Assembly (NCBI GenBank): GCA_025449835.1 | Contig: JANWIO010000053.1 | Location: 1 to 45,922, forward strand | Reading direction: 5' to 3' | Source: Vampirovibrionales bacterium | GTDB taxonomy: Bacteria > Cyanobacteriota > Vampirovibrionia > Vampirovibrionales > JAGQHJ01 | Length of the DNA: 45,922 bases | Shown here: piece after piece, positions 7,352 to 27,417 of the stretch | Layout of the letters: every line of letters begins with the position of its first letter | Position numbering within the stretch: the first letter of the stretch is position 1 | Notes under the pieces: generated by a model | The model's input: only the letters and a program-made list of their open reading frames with translations | Databases searched by the model: none | Told to the model about the DNA's origin: nothing | Made by a program: the position numbers and the translations under genes

Positions 7352-9703
7352 ATGCAAACGACGGGGTTCAGCATTTCACCAACCCAAAAGTTATTAAAAC
7401 CAACGCAACAAGTCACGCGCCAATTGGCCTCACAGTTACAGGGCAATGGAGCAGTATCAGGGGATGTTCGTTTTCAAGGGCGTTTGGCCCCACAAAAAAC
7501 AGCTTTTGTTCCATCAGGGCTTGGTAAAGTCTATTTTGGTATAGGACGTCCTGCTGATAAAACAGCGATAACAAATATTCTGGCTTCGTCGATTCAAACA
7601 GCGCAATTAAAAAAGCTTCATGAAGTCATTCCGTTTGATCAATATCTTGATCGGATTACCCAAAATCCAAAGTTGGTGCGTAACTCCGTGCAACGCATTT
7701 ATGACATGATTATGTCCAAAGGGCGGGAGCGTATTGAGTTGGACAATGGCAAAATTGGATATCGGTACAAACTGTTTACCAGTCCTTCCGAACCTAAATA
7801 TGCTATTTCGGGGATGGAAGAGCCCTTGGATAAATTGGTGGGTGCTTTGGGTGGTGCTGCTCGTGGGACAGGCCTGGAAAAACGGATTTTCCTCTTGGTT
7901 GGCCCTGTTGGAACAGCCAAAACAACCGTTGTGGAAGTCCTTAAAAATGAGTTGGAAGTTTATACCAAAAGTGATGAAGGCGCTTTGTTTGGCACCCAGT
8001 TTAATTTAAAAGGGTTGGAGAAAGACCCACTTTTTAAAGATTTGTTTCGGGATAAGGACGCCTCTGCTGTTCGGGCCTGTCAGGTTTTTGATGATCCCTT
8101 TAAGCTCATTCCCAATGAACCCGATGAAAACGGAGTGCGTTCTCGACAAGAAATTGTGAATCATTTAAACGAAAAACTTCGGGCGGATGCTGAAGCTGCA
8201 GGCAATAAGTCTGTTGCTTATACGCTTAACGCCAAAGGATCTGTTTGTCCGTCGTGTAACGACATCTTTAATCGTTTGGTTCAAAAGTATGATGGCGACA
8301 TGTCTAAGGTGATGCAGCATGTTGAAGCCAAGCGGGTTGTGTTGAGCGAAAAAGATCGGGTTGGTTTAACCACCTTTAGGCCGAAAGACTCTAAAGACCA
8401 AACAACAGACGAGCTGACCGGATCGGTGAACTATCGTAAGCTGGTTCAAAGTGGGAGTGATAGTGATCCGCAATCCTTTGATTATGATGGCGCCTTCGGT
8501 AAATCTAACCGTGGTTTATCCCACTTTGATGAAATCTTTAAGATGGATAAAGTGATGCTTAATCCGCTGTTGAATGCGGCAGAATTTGGGGACTACTCAC
8601 CCAGTAAATTCCCGGATGTGGAGTATGATGGCCTGATTCTTGGGACCACCAATATTCCGGATTGGGAAAAACTGCGAAATGATAAACACCTTGAAGCGAT
8701 TCGAAGCCGTGTGCTTAGGATTGATGTTCCTTATAACAGTAAAGTGAATGATGAAGTCAATATTTACCAAAAAGATTTCGGTAAAAAAGCTCAAGAGCAA
8801 GGGCTTCATGTGTCACCCCATGTGCTTTCCACCGCTGCCTTGTGGCGGGTGATGACAGGGTTAACACCACCCAAAAATGCCAACTTAACTTTGCTCCAAA
8901 AAGCCTTGCTGTATAATGGGCGTAAACTGCCAGGGTTTACAGAAACAAACGTTCGTGAATTAAGGCAAGAAGCAGCAGAAGGTGGTATTGAAAATAAAAA
9001 AGGGATGTCACCCAGGGATATTCAAAATGCGTTGGGCGGTGTGATGCAGCACCCCGAAGTGGTGGATGACGAGATTGGAACCCACTGTGTGAGCCCATTT
9101 TTGGTGATTGATGCCTTGAAAGCTCAGTTGGGCACTGGCGGTGTTTCCAATGTGAGTAAGGATGAGCAAGAGTCATATAGCGAAATGCTGACGGTTGCAG
9201 AAGGCCATATGAAGCACCAGATGATATTAGATGTGCGTCGGGCATTGTCTGGCAGTGACAAAGACATTGAAAAAGAATTTAATTACTACAAGAGCAACCT
9301 CATTGCCTGGAGTCAACGGGAGATGATTAAGGATCCCGTAACCGGTAAGCTTCGTCCACCGGATGAGGAGCACATGAGGGCCATTGAAATTAAAATGGAT
9401 ATCCCTGAGTCACGAAAAGATGATTTTCGTCGGGAGATTATGAACCAAATTGCCGTTACTGCCGTAAGAGGCGAAGAGTTTACCTATCAAACCAACGAGC
9501 GGTTGCGTAAATCCATTGAGGAGGTTCTTGTGGATAAACACAAGGATGGGAATTTATCCCTCGCCAGCCTTGGTAAGGATACGGCCAATTCCGAAGTAAA
9601 AGCACTTGAAAATGAAGTGAAAGATCGTATGGTGCGGGATGGGTATTGTCCTCATTGTGCAGATATTGCCATTGCCGTCTTTGCTGATCCAACCAATCGT
9701 TAA
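7352..9703 (+). CDS. prkA: PrkA-family AAA+ serine protein kinase with N-terminal leader
   Basis: PrkA/YeaG proteins combine an AAA+ ATPase with a C-terminal kinase-like domain and act in stress and stationary-phase or sporulation control; B. subtilis PrkA has also been reported to have ATP-dependent protease activity. Visible here are Walker A GPVGTAKTT (184-192), Walker B-like HFDEIFK (D393, E394), the PrkA Cys pair CPSC (299-302) followed by KYDGDMSKV, the block TFRPKDSKDQTTDELTGS, and a C-terminal CPHC knuckle (766-769). ATG 7352 follows CGGGAG by eight bases; the in-frame GTG 7343 lies in that site. The 783 residues exceed the usual 630-680. The first 63 residues form an acid-poor leader with VRFQGR (F41) and VYFG (F62). 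First gene of a tight cluster. Confidence 0.93.
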   Translation: MQTTGFSISPTQKLLKPTQQVTRQLASQLQGNGAVSGDVRFQGRLAPQKTAFVPSGLGKVYFGIGRPADKTAITNILASSIQTAQLKKLHEVIPFDQYLDRITQNPKLVRNSVQRIYDMIMSKGRERIELDNGKIGYRYKLFTSPSEPKYAISGMEEPLDKLVGALGGAARGTGLEKRIFLLVGPVGTAKTTVVEVLKNELEVYTKSDEGALFGTQFNLKGLEKDPLFKDLFRDKDASAVRACQVFDDPFKLIPNEPDENGVRSRQEIVNHLNEKLRADAEAAGNKSVAYTLNAKGSVCPSCNDIFNRLVQKYDGDMSKVMQHVEAKRVVLSEKDRVGLTTFRPKDSKDQTTDELTGSVNYRKLVQSGSDSDPQSFDYDGAFGKSNRGLSHFDEIFKMDKVMLNPLLNAAEFGDYSPSKFPDVEYDGLILGTTNIPDWEKLRNDKHLEAIRSRVLRIDVPYNSKVNDEVNIYQKDFGKKAQEQGLHVSPHVLSTAALWRVMTGLTPPKNANLTLLQKALLYNGRKLPGFTETNVRELRQEAAEGGIENKKGMSPRDIQNALGGVMQHPEVVDDEIGTHCVSPFLVIDALKAQLGTGGVSNVSKDEQESYSEMLTVAEGHMKHQMILDVRRALSGSDKDIEKEFNYYKSNLIAWSQREMIKDPVTGKLRPPDEEHMRAIEIKMDIPESRKDDFRREIMNQIAVTAVRGEEFTYQTNERLRKSIEEVLVDKHKDGNLSLASLGKDTANSEVKALENEVKDRMVRDGYCPHCADIAIAVFADPTNR

Positions 9704-9739
9704 TAAACCAACTGATCAAGACGGGGTGATATTTTAAGG

Positions 9740-11527
9740 ATGATGAATGGTGTTACAAGACCATTGACAGGAATGAGGATTCGGCAGAATCTCTCTTCGA
9801 GCGCTTTGAAAAATGCAAGGCGCTTAGCAACAGAGTCGAAAAATCCTTCTGTTCAGTTTTCCGCTTCATCTTCCCAGTTGTCTCGTTTGAGTCAAAGGGT
9901 TTCAGCCCAGGGAGCTCAAGGCATTCGGTTTGGGTATTACAACCCAAAGTGTAATCCCCTCAATGAGAAAACCGATCCGAATCTGGAATTTTGGCGAAGA
10001 AATGCGGTTCAGATTGCAAGAAAAGATGGGTTGGATTTTTATAATACCCACTTCTGGTTTGTGGATCAGGAAACCATGTTGCAGACGGCTGCTCGAGGTG
10101 GATTCCCGACTCGATATCCCCATTACTCTTTTGGCCAAGAGTATGAAAATCTGAGAATACCCAATCAATATGGGCTACAAAAATTATATGAGCTGGTGAT
10201 TAATCATGACCCAGCTCATGCGTATTTGTTAAAATCCAATCCGGCATACGCCCAGAAAGTGGTTGTGGCCCATGTGTTGGGGCATAGCGATTTTTTTAAA
10301 AATAATTACATGTTTCGAGAATCCAACCGAAAAATGCTGGGGCGGATGGGGGATCATTCGGGCATCGTTCGGCGAATTATGGATAAAGAACGTGTTTCTT
10401 TTGAAGAGATGGAAAAATTTATTGATAAGGTCCATTCCATTCAATGGCTCATCGATATGGGGCGGGCTTCTGGGCGTCCTCTGCAGATGACACCAGATAT
10501 GCCGCAAAAGATTAGGCCGATTCCGGACGAATGGGGGCGTGTGGATGTGTCTGGTCTACCCCGGCATATGGATAGGATTTTTAACCCGGATAAGCGGATT
10601 GTGGAAGAACGGGAGGCTGAGACACAACGTCGTGAAGCCCAGTTAAAACAGTTTCCGCAACATCCCGACCGAGATGTGATAGCCTTTATTATGGAAAACT
10701 CAACAGTCTTAAAGCCCTGGCAACGGGATGTGTTAAGCATGTTGCGGGATGAAAGCTATTATTTTACCCCGCAGTGGCAAACTAAGATTATGAATGAAGG
10801 TTGGGCGAGTTATTGGCATTGCCGATTAATGCATAAGCCTGAATTAGCGGATACTTCTCATGCCGTTGAAATTTCGGATATGATTGCAGGTGTTTTTGCG
10901 ATGTCAAAAACCCAGATTAACCCTTATACAATTGGCTATACCATTTTTAAAGATATTGAAGAACGATGGAATAAAGGTCGTCACGGAAAAGAATGGGAAG
11001 CGATTAAGGATAGAAAACAGCGCGAAGAATATGATACCCATGAAATGAATGGCTACAAAAAGATTTTTGAAGTGCGGGAGCGCTACAATGACTATCAATT
11101 TATTCAAGAATTTTTTACACCTGAAATTGCTGAAAAACTGAAGTTGTTTACATGGGAACCTAATGATACTGGAAATGGTCGACCCTCTTTGGAAATTGCC
11201 AGCCGTCAGTTTGAGGAAATTAAGCGTAGATTATTAGGAATGCTTGAAAATGGTGGGAAGCCATTGATTCGGGTGATTGATGGGAATTATCAAAACCGGG
11301 GTGAACTCTGCTTAGAGCATGTTTATGCCTACGATTTAAAATTCGATTGGGCCGTGAAAACCCTGCAAAATATTCATGCCATGTGGGGCCGCCCAGTACA
11401 TTTATTAACGTCTATCACTGATCCAGACAGTAAAAAGCTGGAAGCTGTTCGTATCAGTGTTGATGGACCTTCACGACAAAATGTTCATCTTGCCAAGAAG
11501 GGTGCAAAAGGGGAGTGGCTACGATGA
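9740..11527 (+). CDS. spoVR: SpoVR family protein with N-terminal leader
   Basis: SpoVR/YcgB proteins accompany PrkA and YeaH in many bacteria; their biochemistry is unresolved, and in Bacillus the gene affects the spore cortex. The family core is plain: HVLGHSDFFKNNYMF with H178 and H182, NEGWASYWHCRLMH (metal-site-like histidines), and YEN...YGL near the start. The 595 residues are longer than the usual 470-510 because residues 1-65 form an acid-poor, Ser/Arg/Gln-rich leader with VQFS (F40) and IRFG (F64). ATG 9740 or 9743 are both possible; AAGG lies immediately before. The gap to prkA is 36 bases and to yeaH 15 bases, so these are almost certainly co-transcribed. Confidence 0.93.
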   Translation: MMNGVTRPLTGMRIRQNLSSSALKNARRLATESKNPSVQFSASSSQLSRLSQRVSAQGAQGIRFGYYNPKCNPLNEKTDPNLEFWRRNAVQIARKDGLDFYNTHFWFVDQETMLQTAARGGFPTRYPHYSFGQEYENLRIPNQYGLQKLYELVINHDPAHAYLLKSNPAYAQKVVVAHVLGHSDFFKNNYMFRESNRKMLGRMGDHSGIVRRIMDKERVSFEEMEKFIDKVHSIQWLIDMGRASGRPLQMTPDMPQKIRPIPDEWGRVDVSGLPRHMDRIFNPDKRIVEEREAETQRREAQLKQFPQHPDRDVIAFIMENSTVLKPWQRDVLSMLRDESYYFTPQWQTKIMNEGWASYWHCRLMHKPELADTSHAVEISDMIAGVFAMSKTQINPYTIGYTIFKDIEERWNKGRHGKEWEAIKDRKQREEYDTHEMNGYKKIFEVRERYNDYQFIQEFFTPEIAEKLKLFTWEPNDTGNGRPSLEIASRQFEEIKRRLLGMLENGGKPLIRVIDGNYQNRGELCLEHVYAYDLKFDWAVKTLQNIHAMWGRPVHLLTSITDPDSKKLEAVRISVDGPSRQNVHLAKKGAKGEWLR

Positions 11528-11542
11528 AACGGGAGGCTCGAC

Positions 11543-12901
11543 ATGATTATTAAGCCTGTTTTTTCGCAATCGGTGACTTCTGCTTCATCAAAGCCGAAGG
11601 TGAATCAATCTTTGGTGAAACCCCCTTTATCTCAGTCTGCTCAAGCAATACCCCTTTCGGGTGTACAGGCCAAAAATGTGTTTCAGTCCTACCTTCGGTT
11701 TGGTGCTGATCCGGATCATCGTCGCTATAAAAGTATTGTGAAGGGACTGACCCGTAAGGACATTCGAGAACTGATTAACCCAGAAGAGTTGGAAGTGTTG
11801 GAGGGGGGAAAACGAGTTCGGATTCCCAAACATGTGATTCAACACCCCGAATTTACCCGTGGTGGCCCTACCCAAGGCCAAGGAGGCGTTGGCGCTGGCG
11901 ATGGTGAACCTGGAACCCCCATTGGTCAGACAGATGAAAATGGTGAGCCTCAAGAAGGAACCGGTAAAGCAGGAGCAGATCCTGGTGGTCATCTCACAGA
12001 AGAGTGGACTATGACCGAACTGATTCGCTCTTTTCCGGAGTGGACATTGCCCAACAGGCAACCCAAGGGCGAAGGGAAAATAAAAGAAAAAAAATATGTG
12101 TTTAACGATGTGCGTCGAGTGGGGCCCAAAATGCTCTTGAAAGAGACCATGCGCAATACCATTGAACGCACCATTATTGAACAAGGCAGCGAAAACATTG
12201 ATCCAGACGATCTGCTGGATAAGATGGTGATTGAGCCCCAGGATGTTCGTTATCGTTCTTACAATGAAATTGAAATCCCCCTTGAAAATTCTGTGGTGAT
12301 TTATATCATGGATGTCTCCGGCTCTATGACCGATGAACAAAAACGACAAGCTCGTACATCCTGTACATTTCTCTCAGGGGGTATTAAGGTCGCCACAGGG
12401 GAAGCTAATGCGGCAATCAGAGGGGAAGACTATTCTCATGACAAAGACTATGGCGAGGGCGTGGAGGAAGTGTTTATTGTCCATGATGCGGCTGCCAAGG
12501 AAGTGTCAGAGCATGATTTTTATCATACCCGTGAAAGTGGGGGAACCCGTATTTCTAATGCGTATCGCTTGGCAAAAGAAAGTATTGAAAAGCGTTACCC
12601 GCCAGACCAATGGAATGTTTATATGTTTCATTACAGCGATGGGGATAATTGGAGCGAAGATAACCGGGCGGCCATAGAACTCATTGATGAGTTATTGCCT
12701 CAGGTAAATGAAATTGGGTTTCTCCAACTTGAAAGCCCCTATGGTAGCGGTGAATTTTTGCGAGTTCTTGAAAACAAGTATGGTAAAAAACATGTCAAAA
12801 TGCGTCTTGCTGAAATAAAGAGCAATGCAACTCCTGATGAATTTTTTGGCGCCATTGGCGAAATGTTAAGCGAACGGGAAGGGGGGACCAAAAATGGATA
12901 A
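11543..12901 (+). CDS. yeaH: YeaH/YhbH (DUF444) family VWA-domain protein with N-terminal leader
   Basis: DUF444 proteins have a C-terminal von Willebrand A domain and work with PrkA kinases. The MIDAS motif D257-V-S-G-S is in VVIYIMDVSGSM. The family blocks HDAAAKEVSEHDFYHTRESGGTRISNAY and VYMFHYSDGDNW are present (the first spans residues near 310-337). The N-terminal third has the typical low-complexity Gly/Gln/Thr region. Residues 1-54 form a leader without any acidic residue that ends in YLRFG (F53). GGGAGG lies about six bases before ATG 11543. The end overlaps the second prkA gene by 8 bases, so translation is coupled. At 452 residues the length is normal for the family. An AAA+ plus VWA pairing recalls MoxR-type chaperone systems. 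Confidence 0.92.
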   Translation: MIIKPVFSQSVTSASSKPKVNQSLVKPPLSQSAQAIPLSGVQAKNVFQSYLRFGADPDHRRYKSIVKGLTRKDIRELINPEELEVLEGGKRVRIPKHVIQHPEFTRGGPTQGQGGVGAGDGEPGTPIGQTDENGEPQEGTGKAGADPGGHLTEEWTMTELIRSFPEWTLPNRQPKGEGKIKEKKYVFNDVRRVGPKMLLKETMRNTIERTIIEQGSENIDPDDLLDKMVIEPQDVRYRSYNEIEIPLENSVVIYIMDVSGSMTDEQKRQARTSCTFLSGGIKVATGEANAAIRGEDYSHDKDYGEGVEEVFIVHDAAAKEVSEHDFYHTRESGGTRISNAYRLAKESIEKRYPPDQWNVYMFHYSDGDNWSEDNRAAIELIDELLPQVNEIGFLQLESPYGSGEFLRVLENKYGKKHVKMRLAEIKSNATPDEFFGAIGEMLSEREGGTKNG

Positions 12902-15530
12902 AATTACCCTTTCACCTCGCCTTACCCTGCAGTCGAAACGGCCTGTTGCTGCCACAAGGTCTCACCAGGTGCCATTGTCTGCTCTTCAAAATACTTTACG
13001 CTTTGGGCAATCTGCACTTTCTTCGGCTTTATGGCAAAAATATACGGGGATTCGGTTTGGCTCAACGGATGACATTGCCGATGCGTTGCTGAATGATGTA
13101 AAACAAGTTGGGAAAAAGCAGTTTAAGTCATCGAAGCAGGTGATGACCTTTAAGGAATTTCTCAGAGAAGCTGCAAAAGAGCCAGCGAAATATCTACGGA
13201 ACTCAAGTCAGCATACGTTAGACGCCATTGATTTTTATAACAAGCAAGCGGGTGTGGATGGAAAAAAAGTCAATGTTTTGGGAAAAGAAGTAGAACCCTT
13301 TGCGGCTATGTCACGCCCTTGGGATGCAGATTTAACGAATAAAAATGCCATTTATGGGTTGGATCTGACCCTCCATGAAATTCAAGAAGTGCTTCGGGAC
13401 AATGAGCGAAAAACACATCCAGATCGTGCAATTGTCATTCATGGCCCGACGGGCACGGCAAAAACCAATACGGTTGTTACCCTGTTTGAGATGGATGAAA
13501 ACTATTCCAAAGAAGATGAAGGTGCCCTCTATACCTTTAACTGGGTTCTCCCGGATAATTCAGATGAGTTGGATGGTGGGTTAGAGCCAGCAACCCTCGT
13601 TTCAGAGGCAGAGGCTAACCAAAATTTTGAAGAACCCACTGATCTCTTCAATAATGGCATGGTGGTTCCCGTTAAAACCAGAACCAATCCCATTTTTCTC
13701 CTAGATAAAAAGAGTCGCAACCGATTTTTTCAAAAACTTCGAGAGAACGGTAAACTTCCAAAAAGCTTTAACAAAGACTATTTTTTAGTTCATGGTTTAG
13801 ATAGTGCCTCTCAAGTAATTTATGATGCCTTATGGCGCCATTATAAAGGGGATATTGATAAGGTCTTAAATCACGTTCAGGTGGTCCGTTGGACATCTTC
13901 TTTACAAAACCGCCGGGGCTTGGCAAGAATCCCCACAGCAGAAACACCGGATGCGGCTTTGGTCGATATTACCCCTGAGACAGATTGGAACCGATTGTCA
14001 CGACCTATTAAAGAAGCTTTTATGACAGCTGGCCTTCATGAATTGGTGGGTCCCTTTATTCAGGCCAATCGGGGGCATATCCTCTTTGATGATCAGTTTA
14101 AATTAGATCGGATTGCGCATTTCTTAACCCTTGTTCAGCCTGCCGAAAAAGGGATTGTTACCATTTCATCTCGTATGGGAACTAAGGCTGTGGAGGAGCG
14201 GACCGACTTAACCATTTGGACCACCACCAATGATGATGATTTAGAACTCCTGAAGGAAAAATATCCCAACTGGAAAACCATGTCTGAAAAATTGATCTTT
14301 ATTCCTGCGGGATATGCTCGTCGCTATGGCACGGCTGCGGAACTTTATGAAAGCAAGCTGAGAGAAGTGATTCCCGTAAATAGCGGCCGTCATATTTCTC
14401 CTCATGCAATAGACACTTTTGCCTTATGGGTGACCTTAACCACCTTGTTCCCACCCAACAGGCGCTCAAAGATTTATGACACCAAAATCGACGCCGAAAC
14501 ATCAGAAGTTTTGAAGCAAGCCCTTGAAAAACTAAAAGACAAAGGCCTGCTTTATAAAGCATTGCTTTATCAGGGAGAAGATTTAAACGCTTTTGAATTA
14601 GATCCGGCCAAACAACCTTTTTCAACGCAAGAACAAGAAATTTTAAAACAACATGTGGATAAAATTGCAAATGAATATAAGTTTGGCCCAGAACATGATC
14701 AGTATCCCTTTTTCTATGAAGGGCGTTTAGGGTTTCCAACCCGGATAGCGATCAGTCTATTTCAAGAAATGGCGGATAAAAAGCCCAATGAATGCTTTTC
14801 GGCAGTAGATGTGCTTGAGCGGTTGGATGAGCGTGCTCATGAGCCGTTTGAATATATCAAAGAATTTGAACAATTTAAGAACTTGGTGGGTGATCCGGCC
14901 AATCCCCAAAATTTACTGGCTCAGGTAAAACATCATATGGCCCGAAAAATCCGATATCAGTTTCAGAATGCTCTCGGCTTGATTAAGCCGGAAGAAGAGC
15001 ATGTGAAGGTATTAACCAAATACTTAAAGCATGTTGTGGCGGCAAATCAACATTCTGACGTTGAAAGAGGTTGGGAGGTTGGGAATAGTCGTTCTCCCAG
15101 CAATGAATTTATGGAAGAGCTTGAAAAGCTTTTTCAGCCGGATATTTACAAAGATACCCAAAGAAAGTCATTTCGAGACAATTTCCTCCAAAAATTTGTT
15201 GCTTGGAAAAACCGTAACCCTGGTAAAAATCCGCTGGAGAATATTGCTTCAATTTATGGCAACTATATAAACAACCTAAAATCCAAAGATTTGGCCGATG
15301 GTCAGGAGAAATTAAAAGAAGCCATTGTTGATATTCAATATTATTACACCCATAAAGATGAGCCTGAGGAGGCGCAGGTGACGGCGCAAAACCGAAAACG
15401 GATGAGCCGTCTGCATAAAGCTTTGGAAAACTTGAAATCTCCCGAAATGGGATACTGTGATGAATGTATCCCCAAGCTGGTTATGTTTGCCTTCGAACCA
15501 GGACAACACGGGAATTCTTGGAAACGGTAG
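12894..15530 (+). CDS. Second, diverged PrkA-like AAA+ protein with N-terminal leader
   Basis: A paralogue of the protein at 7352. Walker A GPTGTAKTN is again at residues 184-192, and a C-terminal knuckle CDEC (855-858) is kept. However, the Walker B-like segment reads FDDQFK (D399, D400) instead of FDEIFK, the central CPSC pair is lost (VIYDAL in its place, before HYKGDIDKVL), and the TFRPKDSKDQ block is degenerate (RIPTAETPDAA). ATP binding is likely retained while hydrolysis or kinase activity may be weak; a regulatory subunit of a mixed ring is possible. The 878 residues include extra C-terminal helical sequence. The leader has LRFG (F37) and IRFG (F55). GAAGGGGGG lies just upstream of ATG 12894, which overlaps yeaH by 8 bases. 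Confidence 0.85.
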   Translation: MDKITLSPRLTLQSKRPVAATRSHQVPLSALQNTLRFGQSALSSALWQKYTGIRFGSTDDIADALLNDVKQVGKKQFKSSKQVMTFKEFLREAAKEPAKYLRNSSQHTLDAIDFYNKQAGVDGKKVNVLGKEVEPFAAMSRPWDADLTNKNAIYGLDLTLHEIQEVLRDNERKTHPDRAIVIHGPTGTAKTNTVVTLFEMDENYSKEDEGALYTFNWVLPDNSDELDGGLEPATLVSEAEANQNFEEPTDLFNNGMVVPVKTRTNPIFLLDKKSRNRFFQKLRENGKLPKSFNKDYFLVHGLDSASQVIYDALWRHYKGDIDKVLNHVQVVRWTSSLQNRRGLARIPTAETPDAALVDITPETDWNRLSRPIKEAFMTAGLHELVGPFIQANRGHILFDDQFKLDRIAHFLTLVQPAEKGIVTISSRMGTKAVEERTDLTIWTTTNDDDLELLKEKYPNWKTMSEKLIFIPAGYARRYGTAAELYESKLREVIPVNSGRHISPHAIDTFALWVTLTTLFPPNRRSKIYDTKIDAETSEVLKQALEKLKDKGLLYKALLYQGEDLNAFELDPAKQPFSTQEQEILKQHVDKIANEYKFGPEHDQYPFFYEGRLGFPTRIAISLFQEMADKKPNECFSAVDVLERLDERAHEPFEYIKEFEQFKNLVGDPANPQNLLAQVKHHMARKIRYQFQNALGLIKPEEEHVKVLTKYLKHVVAANQHSDVERGWEVGNSRSPSNEFMEELEKLFQPDIYKDTQRKSFRDNFLQKFVAWKNRNPGKNPLENIASIYGNYINNLKSKDLADGQEKLKEAIVDIQYYYTHKDEPEEAQVTAQNRKRMSRLHKALENLKSPEMGYCDECIPKLVMFAFEPGQHGNSWKR

Positions 15531-15572
15531 CCTAACCTAATTTTTTGATAACCAATAAGAGGATAATCCACC

Positions 15573-16589
15573 ATGGTCATATCAATTCCCGCCATAAAAA
15601 AATATCCATCTTCCGCCAAAAAGCAGCCCCTTTTTCAACGGCCTGCAATAAAAGCCCAGCCTACGCCTTCACAAGTAGTATTTGGATGTAATGCTTCGGA
15701 TTTTCCTCAGTTTCAAGGGATTCCGCATGGTTTAAAAACCCTCTCAACAAAGTCTGCTAATAAAATTCGGTTTGGGGTTTCCAAGGATGACTACAAAGGC
15801 CCCCCTGTGTTTATCAGCCCCGACTATCTTGGGGAGTTTCTACGGGTTCATAATGGTCAGGTGCCTCAAACTGAGAATCTTGAGCATCAATTGATGATCT
15901 CGGAGTTTCAACGGGTTCTTAATGCCAAAGAATCTTCTGCCAGCCGCCGTGATCCCATGCGTGTTTTTCTAAAATACAATAATATCCCGGTATATGGCGC
16001 TGTGCATGATGGGATGGCCAATGAAATTCGGACAAGGGCACAGTTGTTAGTCTCTGCCATGAAAAAAACAGGGATTAAAAAGCCCATTCGCTTTTTGGTC
16101 AATAGTCCAGGTGGCTCAATCTATTCTTTATACTCTATTATGGATACCATGGATGCCCTAAAAAAGGCAGGCATTACCGTTGAGACCTATTGTGTTGGCA
16201 TGGCAGCCAGTGCGGCATCGGTGATTATGGCAAATGGCAGCCAGGGGCATCGTTATATGACGCCGCGTTCAACCATCATGATTCACCAACCCCTCTCAGG
16301 TACCCAGGGCCCAGTATCCAATATGGAGCGGGATTTAAACCGGGCTAAAAAAATGAAAGAGGAATTAACCCAGTTCTATGAACAGACAACCAAAATGCCT
16401 CCAAAGAAACTGAGAGAGGTTTTGGAGATAGATTACTATATGGATTCCGAAGAAAGCTTACAGTATGGTTTTGTGGATAAAATTGCCAGTCAGTTCCCCG
16501 TTCTGGAATTGAAATCAGAGGACTCTGAGTCGATCTGTGCCTTAGGTAAAGAGAAACCATCTGAAGACCCAAACCAGACAGAACAGTAG
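15573..16589 (+). CDS. ClpP-like serine peptidase with long N-terminal extension
   Basis: The Clp peptidase fold is clear: oxyanion segment NSPGGS, nucleophile Ser213 in GMAASAASVIMANG, His238 in IMIHQPLSGTQG, and Asp287 in EIDYYMDSEESLQYGFVDKI, so the catalytic triad is intact. ClpP forms a barrel fed by an AAA+ ring. This protein has 338 residues, not about 200, with roughly 120 extra at the N-terminus, including a leader free of acidic residues to residue 38 with VVFG (F37) and IRFG (F67). No clpX or clpA gene is nearby; the AAA+ proteins in the same cluster are the two PrkAs. AAGAGG stands ten bases before ATG 15573. It may be a dedicated peptidase of this cluster and not the housekeeping ClpP. 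Confidence 0.88.
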   Translation: MVISIPAIKKYPSSAKKQPLFQRPAIKAQPTPSQVVFGCNASDFPQFQGIPHGLKTLSTKSANKIRFGVSKDDYKGPPVFISPDYLGEFLRVHNGQVPQTENLEHQLMISEFQRVLNAKESSASRRDPMRVFLKYNNIPVYGAVHDGMANEIRTRAQLLVSAMKKTGIKKPIRFLVNSPGGSIYSLYSIMDTMDALKKAGITVETYCVGMAASAASVIMANGSQGHRYMTPRSTIMIHQPLSGTQGPVSNMERDLNRAKKMKEELTQFYEQTTKMPPKKLREVLEIDYYMDSEESLQYGFVDKIASQFPVLELKSEDSESICALGKEKPSEDPNQTEQ

Positions 16590-16682
16590 TTCTGCTGGCG
16601 GACAAGGTAAGGCGTATTCGATAAGGTGTATGATAAAATGAACAAAACGAACCCACGTAAAGGCGTGAGGAGGTAAGTTAAA

Positions 16683-17060
16683 ATGCAGATTTCAAAAGCA
16701 ATGGGGCCAAACCCTCGGTTTTCAGGAAAATGGCACTTTCGTTCGTCCTGGGTGAATAAAGACACCATCCAAAGCCTTACGGGGAAAGAACCTCAGCCAG
16801 CACACCAAGGTCGGTTTTGGCTTTTAGAGGTTCCCGATGAAGAAGATATTGCCATTGCAGCAAAGATGCGTCATTTATCCTTTGCCTACGCTGGAGAAGA
16901 CAAGGAATTTGTAAACGCCAATGATCATGCGTATGCCTCGGAAGGGGAAATGCTGACCAGCGTTTTGAAAAAAAAACCGGGGCATTGGCTTCCCCCAGCC
17001 TCGGAACCAAAACCTGAACAACCTGAATTCCCAGGATCTTTATTGGATCTTTTGGGCTAA
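16683..17060 (+). CDS. Small protein of unknown function with RFSG leader
   Basis: A 125-residue protein with an excellent Shine-Dalgarno sequence (GAGGAGGT at 16667-16674). It begins MQISKAMGPNPRFSGKWHF, so it has the same R-F-x-G-[K/R] type of motif (F13) as PrkA (VRFQGR) and the metallophosphoesterase at 45342 (HPRFQGK). No acidic residue occurs before about residue 27. The rest is soluble, with an EVPDEEDIAIAAKMRHLS helix and a Pro/Glu-rich tail. I do not recognise a family. It follows the ClpP-like gene by 93 bases on the same strand and may be the last gene of the prkA cluster. Confidence 0.7.
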   Translation: MQISKAMGPNPRFSGKWHFRSSWVNKDTIQSLTGKEPQPAHQGRFWLLEVPDEEDIAIAAKMRHLSFAYAGEDKEFVNANDHAYASEGEMLTSVLKKKPGHWLPPASEPKPEQPEFPGSLLDLLG

Positions 17061-25416: not shown

Positions 25417-27417
25417 GTGTTACGTCCAGTCCTGCCGATTCAAACTAAACCATTTTTTTCTGCTCAAGTTGGGGTACAGGGCCCGCCAAAATCGCAGAAC
25501 TCTTTGGTCTATCCGCATTCAAAAGCTTCTGTTCAACTCCATTTTGGCTCAGAACAAACCGATTTCCACCACGAAGGTCACTATGAGGGTGATTTCTCAA
25601 TCCCCAGAGCCATTTGGAAACCGGTCCGTAACTACCTCCTCCGTCTTATTTCCTATTGGGATAAAGCATTAGACTTTGTTGATGACAAATTGGCGAAACT
25701 TTGGCGTATGCTTGCGCCGGTTTCTGTCCCAATACTGCAAGAAGCTTTAATCCCGTTGTTGCATCAGTCTTCTGCCGGGTTTCCCGTTGGACTTTTACGG
25801 GCCAGTTTAATTCGAAAAGGCTCACCCGATGCAATGCTGTCTTATCAGGCGCTTCAAGAAAAATATCTTTCCAAAACAACAGATCCAACCTTGTTGCTCA
25901 AAAATCTCGTTGACTCTGAATCTCAAGCTTATCTGGCCAGCCATTTAATGGCCATGGAAACGGCCATTAAAACGCCGGGGCAAAAACTTCAGGTGGATTC
26001 AAAACCATCGTTAAGGCCCTTGAGAATTGGCATTAATGATGCCAATGCCGTGGTGGCGAGAAGAACCACCGAATTACTTTATGGGCATCATCGTCATTCT
26101 GTGGCCAATGGGTTGTATAATCTCATTTTGGCATCTCCCAAAGTGGTCTTGCATGAACATTATCGGGGATGTGCCCCCATGGCCATGGTGCGGGCATGGT
26201 TTATTGAGCAGCAACATTCAAAGGCCTATAAGGGTAATGATGCTTTACAAGAATTTTGCCGGACGGATCGATTGTTTACACCCGATGGGGAAGGTCCCTT
26301 GTATCAGCGGAGTTTAAATCGATTTCGGCTTAAAAACGATAATTTGGTTTCAGTCTCGATTCACTCAGATGATACAGCCTACTTGGCGGCGTATATGTAC
26401 ACCATGCGTCTTGGCTTGGAAAATGTGCGCTATTTTGAGTATCGTCTGAATCCCCTGAGCAAAAATGTTAAAAACCCCATTCGGTATGCCAAGGCCATTC
26501 AACAAGGGCTTGATGATGCAAGAACCTTTTTATATCAATCTCGGGGACAAAAAATTGATGGAAATCTCATTTTTTCTGCAGATCGGCAGCCTAAAGCGGG
26601 GGTGGTGATGAATGCACAATCCGGAAAACAGTTGGATCCTCGGGTATCCCTTGCAATGCAGGTCCTGGACGTTGCCATACAAGCCAAAAAAGAGGGCGTT
26701 CGTGTCACCGGGTTTGATATCCAAGGGGATGAGGCGGGGTATGCCATTACCGATTTTAAACCTGTGGCAGATGCCTTAAAAGCCTATAATCGAAATGTTT
26801 GCCAAAATGGGCATGCTGAACTTCGGATTGGGGCAACCATTCACGCTGGGGAAACACCTTTTTCAGGGTTACTGAGTCATCCAAAGTCATATTTAACGGG
26901 CCAGCAGTCTGTTGAAAAAGCAATTGAGCTTTTCTGGGATCCGACCACCCCGGTACGCATTGGCCATGGCATTCGGGCCATTTATGATCCAAGACTCTTA
27001 AAAACCTGTGTGGAGAAGAATATTGGTTTTGAACAGTGCCCTAAAAGTAATGTTCAAACCGGTGCAGTGTCATACTATACCGAACTCCCCACGTTAACCC
27101 TTTCTCGTCCAAGCCCGGAGGGGCATGGCCTGTTGGTGAACATCAGTTGCGATAATCGAACCACCAGTAAAACCAACTCTTGTAATGAATTGGTGAAGCT
27201 TACCCGACACCTGGGGGCTCGGCATGCAGATCGTAAGAAGTTCCAAACCGATGGCATGGAAATGGCCTTTATTTTTGATCCCGTGGAAAAACAGCGCTTA
27301 CAAAATGAAATGATGGCGACCTATCGGCAAATTGAGTCCCACGATAAGCATCGTCGTATTATTGCTTTAGAGCAAGATGAAAAGTCATTTAGAACCTTAA
27401 TTGATGGACAGGATTAG
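25417..27417 (+). CDS. Adenosine deaminase-family metal-dependent hydrolase with leader
   Basis: The ADA-type TIM-barrel motifs are all in order: first metal pair HEH (H246, H248) in VVLHEHYRG, GFDIQGDEAGY, ATIHAGE (H476, E479), RIGHGIRAIYDPRLLKTC, EQCPKSNVQTGAV, and the late aspartate in NISCDNRTTS. It should hydrolyse an adenosine-like amine, though the substrate may differ because the first motif reads HEHYRG, not H-x-HLDG. The protein has 666 residues with about 240 before the first motif, far more than normal ADA (about 340). Residues 1-44 are an acid-free leader ending in VQLHFG (F43), like the prkA cluster. The start is GTG 25417 with CAGGG seven bases upstream. Confidence 0.87.
   Translation: MLRPVLPIQTKPFFSAQVGVQGPPKSQNSLVYPHSKASVQLHFGSEQTDFHHEGHYEGDFSIPRAIWKPVRNYLLRLISYWDKALDFVDDKLAKLWRMLAPVSVPILQEALIPLLHQSSAGFPVGLLRASLIRKGSPDAMLSYQALQEKYLSKTTDPTLLLKNLVDSESQAYLASHLMAMETAIKTPGQKLQVDSKPSLRPLRIGINDANAVVARRTTELLYGHHRHSVANGLYNLILASPKVVLHEHYRGCAPMAMVRAWFIEQQHSKAYKGNDALQEFCRTDRLFTPDGEGPLYQRSLNRFRLKNDNLVSVSIHSDDTAYLAAYMYTMRLGLENVRYFEYRLNPLSKNVKNPIRYAKAIQQGLDDARTFLYQSRGQKIDGNLIFSADRQPKAGVVMNAQSGKQLDPRVSLAMQVLDVAIQAKKEGVRVTGFDIQGDEAGYAITDFKPVADALKAYNRNVCQNGHAELRIGATIHAGETPFSGLLSHPKSYLTGQQSVEKAIELFWDPTTPVRIGHGIRAIYDPRLLKTCVEKNIGFEQCPKSNVQTGAVSYYTELPTLTLSRPSPEGHGLLVNISCDNRTTSKTNSCNELVKLTRHLGARHADRKKFQTDGMEMAFIFDPVEKQRLQNEMMATYRQIESHDKHRRIIALEQDEKSFRTLIDGQD

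Follow-up and report, generated by a model that had tools for sequence, protein, structure and literature searches.

What could lead a row of dissimilar proteins to begin with the same kind of N-terminal tail? This question is raised by a prkA gene cluster at positions 7352..16800 of contig JANWIO010000053.1 of a Vampirovibrionales bacterium (assembly GCA_025449835.1), of which the whole 45,922-nucleotide stretch analyzed here is referred to as the window. The cluster encodes, one after the other, PrkA, SpoVR, YeaH/YhbH (DUF444), a PrkA-like protein, a ClpP-like protein and a protein of 125 residues. An earlier note on this DNA had described on all six an acid-poor leader with a Phe-Gly motif, doubled in four of them. 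Our analysis shows that the N-terminal element is real and not a product of chance, that it has been selected as a peptide, and that it is common to the five main cluster proteins. What it does is less certain, and a role in docking is the possibility that we tentatively favor.

All of the leaders lie on the plus strand. That of PrkA (7352..7540) carries VRFQG at 7466-7480 (F41) and VYFG at 7529-7540 (F62), numbered from the ATG at 7352, which is preceded by a Shine-Dalgarno-like match. The SpoVR leader (9740..9934) has VQFS at 9851-9862 (F40) and IRFG at 9923-9934 (F64), and that of YeaH/YhbH (11543..11704), with a GGGAGG located 5' of its ATG, has LRFG at 11693-11704 (F53). In the PrkA-like leader (12894..13061) the motifs are LRFG at 12996-13007 (F37) and IRFG at 13050-13061 (F55), and in the ClpP-like leader (15573..15776) they are VVFG at 15675-15686 (F37), PQFQG at 15705-15719 (F47) and IRFG at 15765-15776 (F67). 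These features were read from the sequence, with AlphaFold2 models added for SpoVR and the ClpP-like protein. The Phe residues listed in the earlier note all sit where it placed them, and its acid counts are right (none in 38 residues of the ClpP-like protein, none in 54 of YeaH and one in 65 of SpoVR); PQFQG was missing from its list. The leader precedes a known or conserved domain in five of the six proteins, and the Pfam domains start C-terminal to it, at residue 98 in PrkA, 80 in SpoVR and 125 in the ClpP-like protein. The description of the leaders as N-terminal extensions therefore stands for these five, the 125-residue protein being a weak case without a known family. Judged by its 29% identity to PrkA across 480 residues, the PrkA-like protein is a divergent PrkA, so that the cluster is not the set of six unrelated families it had been taken for. 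The PrkA-like protein (12894-15530) was missed at a threshold of 0.001 by both PrkA Pfam models, which do match the majority of its nearest database relatives. The ClpP-like protein (15573-16589) has about 125 residues ahead of its domain, as do several of its nearest relatives, and its Ser213, His238 and Asp287, which we take to be the catalytic residues, are invariant in a 20-sequence alignment.

Because the motif was chosen after inspecting the window, relatives provide the independent test. We searched the first 57-80 residues of orthologues, a length chosen by the analyst for each gene, for [LIVPAM]xF followed by G or by xG, the second x not being acidic. The cluster orthologues of five genomes of the same order (G026, G031, G042, G056 and G062) contained the motif in 21 of 21 cases, compared with a mean of 2.77 and a maximum of 9 in 5000 shuffles; the G062 PrkA-like protein was scored here on 80 residues instead of 70, and the count is 20/21 with 70. 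Since the window's own main proteins have it in 5/5, the six genomes together give 26/26, made up of PrkA 6/6, SpoVR 6/6, YeaH 5/5, PrkA-like 6/6 and ClpP-like 3/3. Rows are absent for the ClpP-like protein of G042, G056 and G062 and for the YeaH protein of G062, no such frame having been seen in those cluster stretches. Body segments, window included, have the motif in 2/26. The view that the motif did not arise by chance, already put forward for the window, is thus borne out by the relatives. It reaches no further than the order in this comparison: in family f8, which belongs to the same class, lies outside the order and has the cluster genes, the motif occurs in 2/18 starts (1.61 when shuffled), or about chance, and in 2/23 when five further rows without the motif are added, among which the YeaH starts of G058 and G050 are possibly cut short.

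The relatives also reveal which part of the leader is held constant. A narrower motif, with Arg, Lys, His or Gln ahead of Phe, is found in 14/21 of them as opposed to 1.04 after shuffling, indicating that Arg is preferred rather than fixed. Their leaders have a mean acid content of 7.1%, compared with 3.9% in the window, so what is conserved is the motif and not the lack of acid. Nor is the doubling of the motif, once thought to be a general feature, essential to it, two copies being present in only three of the 21 relatives' leaders. G042 and G056, which belong to one genus, share 21-36% identity in their leaders and 58-75% in the remainder of the proteins, with the motif retained throughout (the G042 YeaH frame was begun 8 residues later, at a Met, in this comparison). 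Between these two genomes the PrkA motifs align, the SpoVR motifs almost align, the YeaH motifs are a few residues apart, and the PrkA-like motifs stand at non-aligned sites as PLFRG (G042) and VQFSG (G056). Similar to the motifs of the PrkA-like leader are YAGIRFGS, YKGIHFSG and YKGVRFSG in P0122, P0124 and P0125, and in the pairs P0124/P0125 and P0008/P0009 an F-S-G or F-x-G is retained amid changed surroundings.

The element is not confined to the cluster, contrary to what the earlier note supposed. An adenosine deaminase homologue elsewhere in the window (gene 25417-27417, plus strand, PF00962 at residues 297-632) has a leader at 25417..25548 that ends in LHFG at 25537-25548. For a wider view we used a 20% sample of the source assembly (G000; 2.9 Mb in 167 contigs, ~92% complete), which amounts to 578,535 bases; its 487 open frames were called by length, with a minimum of 100 residues, and hence have approximate starts. 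At residues 11-80 of these frames, no tripeptide pattern is more enriched than RFG (35 occurrences, 7.1 expected). Hits to [LIVPAM][RKHQ]F(G, S or xG) peak at 4.21 per 1000 positions in residues 20-39, compared with 1.23 in residues 0-19, 1.23 in 40-59, 0.92 in 60-79 and 0.36 deep in proteins. Acid content, with no condition on composition, rises from 2-5% before an N-terminal motif to 9-12% after it, and internal copies of the motif show no such step. An acid-poor leader combined with a motif was found in 44 sampled proteins (~9%, about 1 in 11). Outside the cluster these features coincide in 39 of 481 proteins, as opposed to 5.45 with shuffled N-termini; with one protein counted per paralogue family, 32.8 of 419 are tagged (4.6 expected, shuffled maximum 10), and a looser rule gives 47/487 versus 7.9.

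A typical leader is an acid-poor stretch, mostly of 20-40 residues, closed by a motif near [L/P/V/I]-R-F-(x)-G/S. The commonest residues over the 44 leaders read [S/Q]-[L/P/V/I]-R-F-[G/S]-[A/S/G/E], with R in 32/44 and G in 29/44. Leaders are rich in Ser, Pro, Lys and Gln and poor in Gly and acid; in the 44, which were chosen partly for low acid, S makes up 12.9%, P 10.1%, T 7.4% and D+E 1.4%. The likeness to organelle transit peptides drawn at the outset is therefore sound as regards composition. It does not extend to an amphipathic helix of the mitochondrial type, the hydrophobic moment being 0.93 versus 0.91 in shuffled leaders, with 18/38 above. A Sec signal peptide was likewise rejected, a first hydrophobic segment lying ahead of the motif in just 1/44 proteins. 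In the AlphaFold2 models, the predicted local distance difference test score (pLDDT) is below 50 over residues 1-61 of the ClpP-like protein and 1-66 of SpoVR, and the fold-nearest motifs (residues 65-68 and 62-65, respectively) are at or adjoin the border of low pLDDT. The leader is thus predicted to be unstructured and to lie outside the folded domain.

Several observations indicate that it is the peptide that matters. At the motif, Arg is encoded by five different codons and Gly by all four of its own, and the codon spread of Arg, Phe and Gly there is close to that of the genome; because synonymous codons vary in this way, selection acts on the peptide. The leaders also appear to be translated, an objection of mis-annotated starts having been raised in advance. 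In 33 of the 43 tagged genes, a start that lies upstream of the motif is preceded by a Shine-Dalgarno-like match of at least 4 bases; a downstream start is so preceded in 16/43, and the upstream site is the better one in 35/43. For comparison, 319 of 437 other genes have such a match.

What kinds of proteins are tagged? Thirty motif proteins, strict or loose, were picked by the analyst for a Pfam scan, and 13 had a match while 17 had none. The matches comprise three ankyrin proteins, a phospholipase D-like protein, an RNase T-type exonuclease, a GlgB-like amylase, a DinG-like helicase (both labels being the analyst's reading of the domains), a DeoC-type aldolase, adenosine deaminase, a metallophosphoesterase, a pyridoxal phosphate (PLP) enzyme, a cytidylyltransferase and a weak AAA match. 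Six cytidylyltransferase matches occur in the genome, and three of them are better than this NadD-like one. As random untagged proteins had a Pfam match in 11/18 cases (20 drawn, two omitted as tag variants), the figure of 13/30 does not demonstrate that tagged proteins are lineage-specific. A hydrophobic segment is present in 16/44 tagged and 116/443 other proteins, and the tag recurs through tandem arrays of small proteins, mostly of membrane type (L065, L057). At L065:4868-10158, eleven small divergent proteins lie in tandem. To the eye, most of them contain a hydrophobic stretch, and their leaders, all different, close in L/P-[R/K/Q]-F-G. L041:190-5335 likewise holds tandem genes, four with I/L-R-F-G leaders, and the one that was scanned has many ankyrin repeats. 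Back in the cluster, the 125-residue protein has PRFSG at 16713-16727 (residues 11-15) within a start at 16683..16727 (plus strand), a weak case known from sequence only. It has no family in Pfam or NCBIfam, and its similarity to a small protein adjoining the G026 cluster (E 0.79) is not convincing.

The Arg-type motif is enriched 6.8-fold at N-termini of the source genome, and it is also enriched in G026, in G031 and in G042 plus G056, all small samples with the cluster included. It is not enriched in G037 or in G002 plus G014, and it stands at 1.5-fold in other f1 genomes. A class-wide tag can be rejected on these counts, the enrichment being 0.6-fold in f4, 1.0-fold in f6 and 0.5-fold in f5, f7 and f9 pooled, with two hits behind a value of 1.5-fold in f8. 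The sister family f6 (L128, L131, L167-L183) has some MKV...FxG starts, too few for enrichment, and we do not claim them as the tag. Outside its cluster, G031 has four tagged proteins of 64 where shuffling gives 0.4. Of the order's 18 genomes, six have the PrkA AAA family over the cut-off; they are those whose clusters were compared, and SpoVR is found in the same six. Taken together, the enrichment and co-occurrence counts by genome identify the cluster as the constant carrier of the tag; a genome-wide spread is clear only in the source genome, and the data are suggestive of one in G031.

How might such an element work? A short motif that persists in a fast-diverging tail, on every cluster protein and sometimes repeated, behaves like a docking motif. 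Our tentative explanation, which we hold with something less than confidence, is that the leaders may be N-terminal tags that dock on a shared partner, most likely the cluster's own PrkA-type AAA+ complex. The Phe side chain of the motif would sit in a groove of this partner, and docking would assemble PrkA, the PrkA-like protein, SpoVR and YeaH, with the ClpP-like protein where present, into one machine. In the source genome, the tag would recruit more clients, including ankyrin proteins, membrane proteins and divergent enzymes. AAA+ proteases of the Yme1/YME1L type recognize unstructured Phe-rich N-terminal tails, and Lon a similar motif, according to PMC5438985; Bacillus anthracis PrkA is described in PMC13001217 as YME1-like in AlphaFold 3 modeling and as oligomerizing with ATP, with no detectable protease activity. 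Several points weigh against this explanation. The PrkA-type complex is a predicted receptor, its link to the tag being one of presence and neighborhood only. The PrkA-type AAA+ protein is tagged as well, and would thus have to serve as both partner and client. Tagged non-cluster proteins number 9/228 in PrkA-bearing relatives (1.8 shuffled) and 6/324 in PrkA-lacking ones (3.1 shuffled), a difference with a Fisher p of 0.18, and G060 and G061, of the same family with PrkA not over the cut-off (one weak match in G061), still have a few leader-like proteins. Finally, by eye, a leader with motif seems to stand directly before the lipoprotein-type signal of L068:4125-4679 and the signal-peptide-like stretch of L056:5135-5968, and would be removed on export, which fits poorly with a tag that acts on the mature protein.

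In favor of docking, the several copies per leader (three in the ClpP-like protein, two each in PrkA and the PrkA-like protein) are more easily explained by avidity than by one site of cleavage. The rival they speak against is a cleaved presequence, in which a peptidase would cut at or beside Phe-Gly and the mature protein would begin there. The rise of acid content at the motif would suit such a cut, as would the last motif, which in the two AlphaFold2 models sits on or close to the edge of the folded region, and an Arg ahead of Phe is reminiscent of the Arg-2 rule for mitochondrial presequences. M16-type peptidases are present in 18 of 18 genomes; being everywhere, they are uninformative as a phylogenetic match, and G037, in which the tag is unenriched, has them just as the others do. 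In the G031 YeaH protein, moreover, the motif lies far upstream of the domain. Altogether we consider cleavage improbable. Far less probable still is an origin in translation or DNA, be it a repeated DNA element, a slow-translation ramp or miscalled starts. The identical string ATTCGGTTTGG in three cluster genes would be accounted for in this way, and 20-40 residues correspond to about one ribosome tunnel, but the varied codons, the Shine-Dalgarno-like sites that favor the leader starts and the conservation of the motif across genera all argue otherwise.

The tag might instead mark proteins for degradation or remodeling by an AAA+ protease of the Lon, Clp or PrkA type, rather than for assembly. 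Phe-rich unstructured N-terminal tails are Yme1 degrons, according to PMC5438985, with a similar motif for Lon, and the tag resembles them in having Phe in the tail (by definition of the motif) and predicted disorder in two proteins. The cluster also couples AAA+ proteins with a ClpP-like protein whose Ser, His and Asp are invariant. On the other hand, the machine's own subunits carry the tag, and it is retained in the cluster stretches of G042, G056 and G062, where no ClpP-like gene was seen; a degron is thus an unlikely reading, though one not to be dropped lightly. We are more skeptical of a type III-like signal for secretion into a prey or host cell. The acid-poor, Ser-rich start and the tagging of ankyrin and tandem membrane-type families would agree with it, and two near-complete FlhA-type export genes occur in 16 of 18 genomes, including the source genome. 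Measured by the Pseudomonas syringae rules, as set out in PMC3338616, 47/61 tagged and 183/426 other proteins have no acid in the first 12 residues (p = 5e-7), 32/61 and 117/426 have at least 10% Ser in the first 50 (p = 1.6e-4), and 13/61 and 28/426 obey all three rules (p = 6e-4); an aliphatic residue or Pro at position 3 or 4 is not enriched (30/61 versus 214/426). The tagged types, however, include PrkA, SpoVR, YeaH, GlgB-like and DinG-like proteins, known as intracellular, and G037 has two FlhA-type genes as well without enrichment of the tag. The FlhA-type proteins of the source genome are on G000:C153 and G000:C14 (L044), G062 has its second copy in fragments, and G063 has one only. A representative of each kind was compared with both families, one being partial, and the two scored better as FlhA than as SctV, so that a second flagellar-type export system is possible. 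Two further candidates were rejected: a type IV secretion substrate, VirB4 (PF03135) occurring in 2/18 genomes and not being found in the ~92% complete source genome, and encapsulin cargo, PF04454 occurring only in G060 (C4) and G031 (C4) and not being found in the source genome, in a search that did not cover other shell families.

A broader form of the docking explanation, which we regard as rather doubtful, is that the order possesses an N-terminal sorting code of its own, an acid-free tail plus Arg-Phe-Gly. It would have arisen on the PrkA-SpoVR-YeaH machine and in some genomes spread to a tenth of the proteome; as a bacterial counterpart of transit peptides, it would direct unrelated proteins, cytosolic and membrane ones alike, to a single hub. 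A tag on ~9% of the proteins sampled from a bacterium would imply a so far unknown recognition system. Further study of the tag may also offer a handle on the role of the widespread and poorly understood PrkA-SpoVR-YeaH genes. No description of it was found in the open-licence literature on Vampirovibrionia or Melainabacteria N-termini (titles and abstract starts, most subscription papers being outside), nor any paper naming SpoVR, PrkA and YeaH together. In addition, no known signal that was tested fits on all testable features, apart from the AAA+ degron, whose defining effect is degradation. The tag is therefore likely to be undescribed so far.

Among known systems, one parallel is the chloroplast transit peptide. 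It too is an acid-poor, Ser/Pro-rich tail, with an FGLK motif, and the tag resembles it in being an acid-poor Ser/Thr/Pro-rich N-terminal tail with a Phe-Gly element, in an organism that is likely a non-photosynthetic member of a sister class of the cyanobacteria. In contrast, the tag has Arg before Phe and no fixed L-K after it, and it occurs on proteins of cytosolic and membrane types in a bacterium, with no plastid to be entered through TOC/TIC. The tag would provide a natural example of tails of the transit-peptide kind in bacteria likely related to the phylum of the plastid ancestor. The IGF loop by which Clp ATPases dock on ClpP is likewise a short hydrophobic-x-Phe-Gly element, but it is a loop of ClpX rather than an N-terminal tail, and the tag persists where no ClpP-like gene is seen in the cluster stretch. 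With the Yme1/YME1L and Lon degrons, as presented in PMC5438985, the tag shares an unstructured terminal tail with Phe and, if docking is correct, recognition by an AAA+ protein. It differs from them in being one defined F-(x)-G motif that is found on the AAA+ proteins themselves too. The type III signals of P. syringae are also acid-poor and Ser-rich at the N-terminus, yet in PMC3338616 they are described by composition, without a consensus motif, and their aliphatic/Pro rule is the one unenriched in the tag. Finally, the cluster agrees in domains and neighborhood with the PrkA-SpoVR-YeaH/YhbH gene set. Whereas SpoVR of other phyla has ~500 amino acids and starts near its domain, the set here has leaders of ~55-80 residues and includes an extra PrkA-like and ClpP-like protein.

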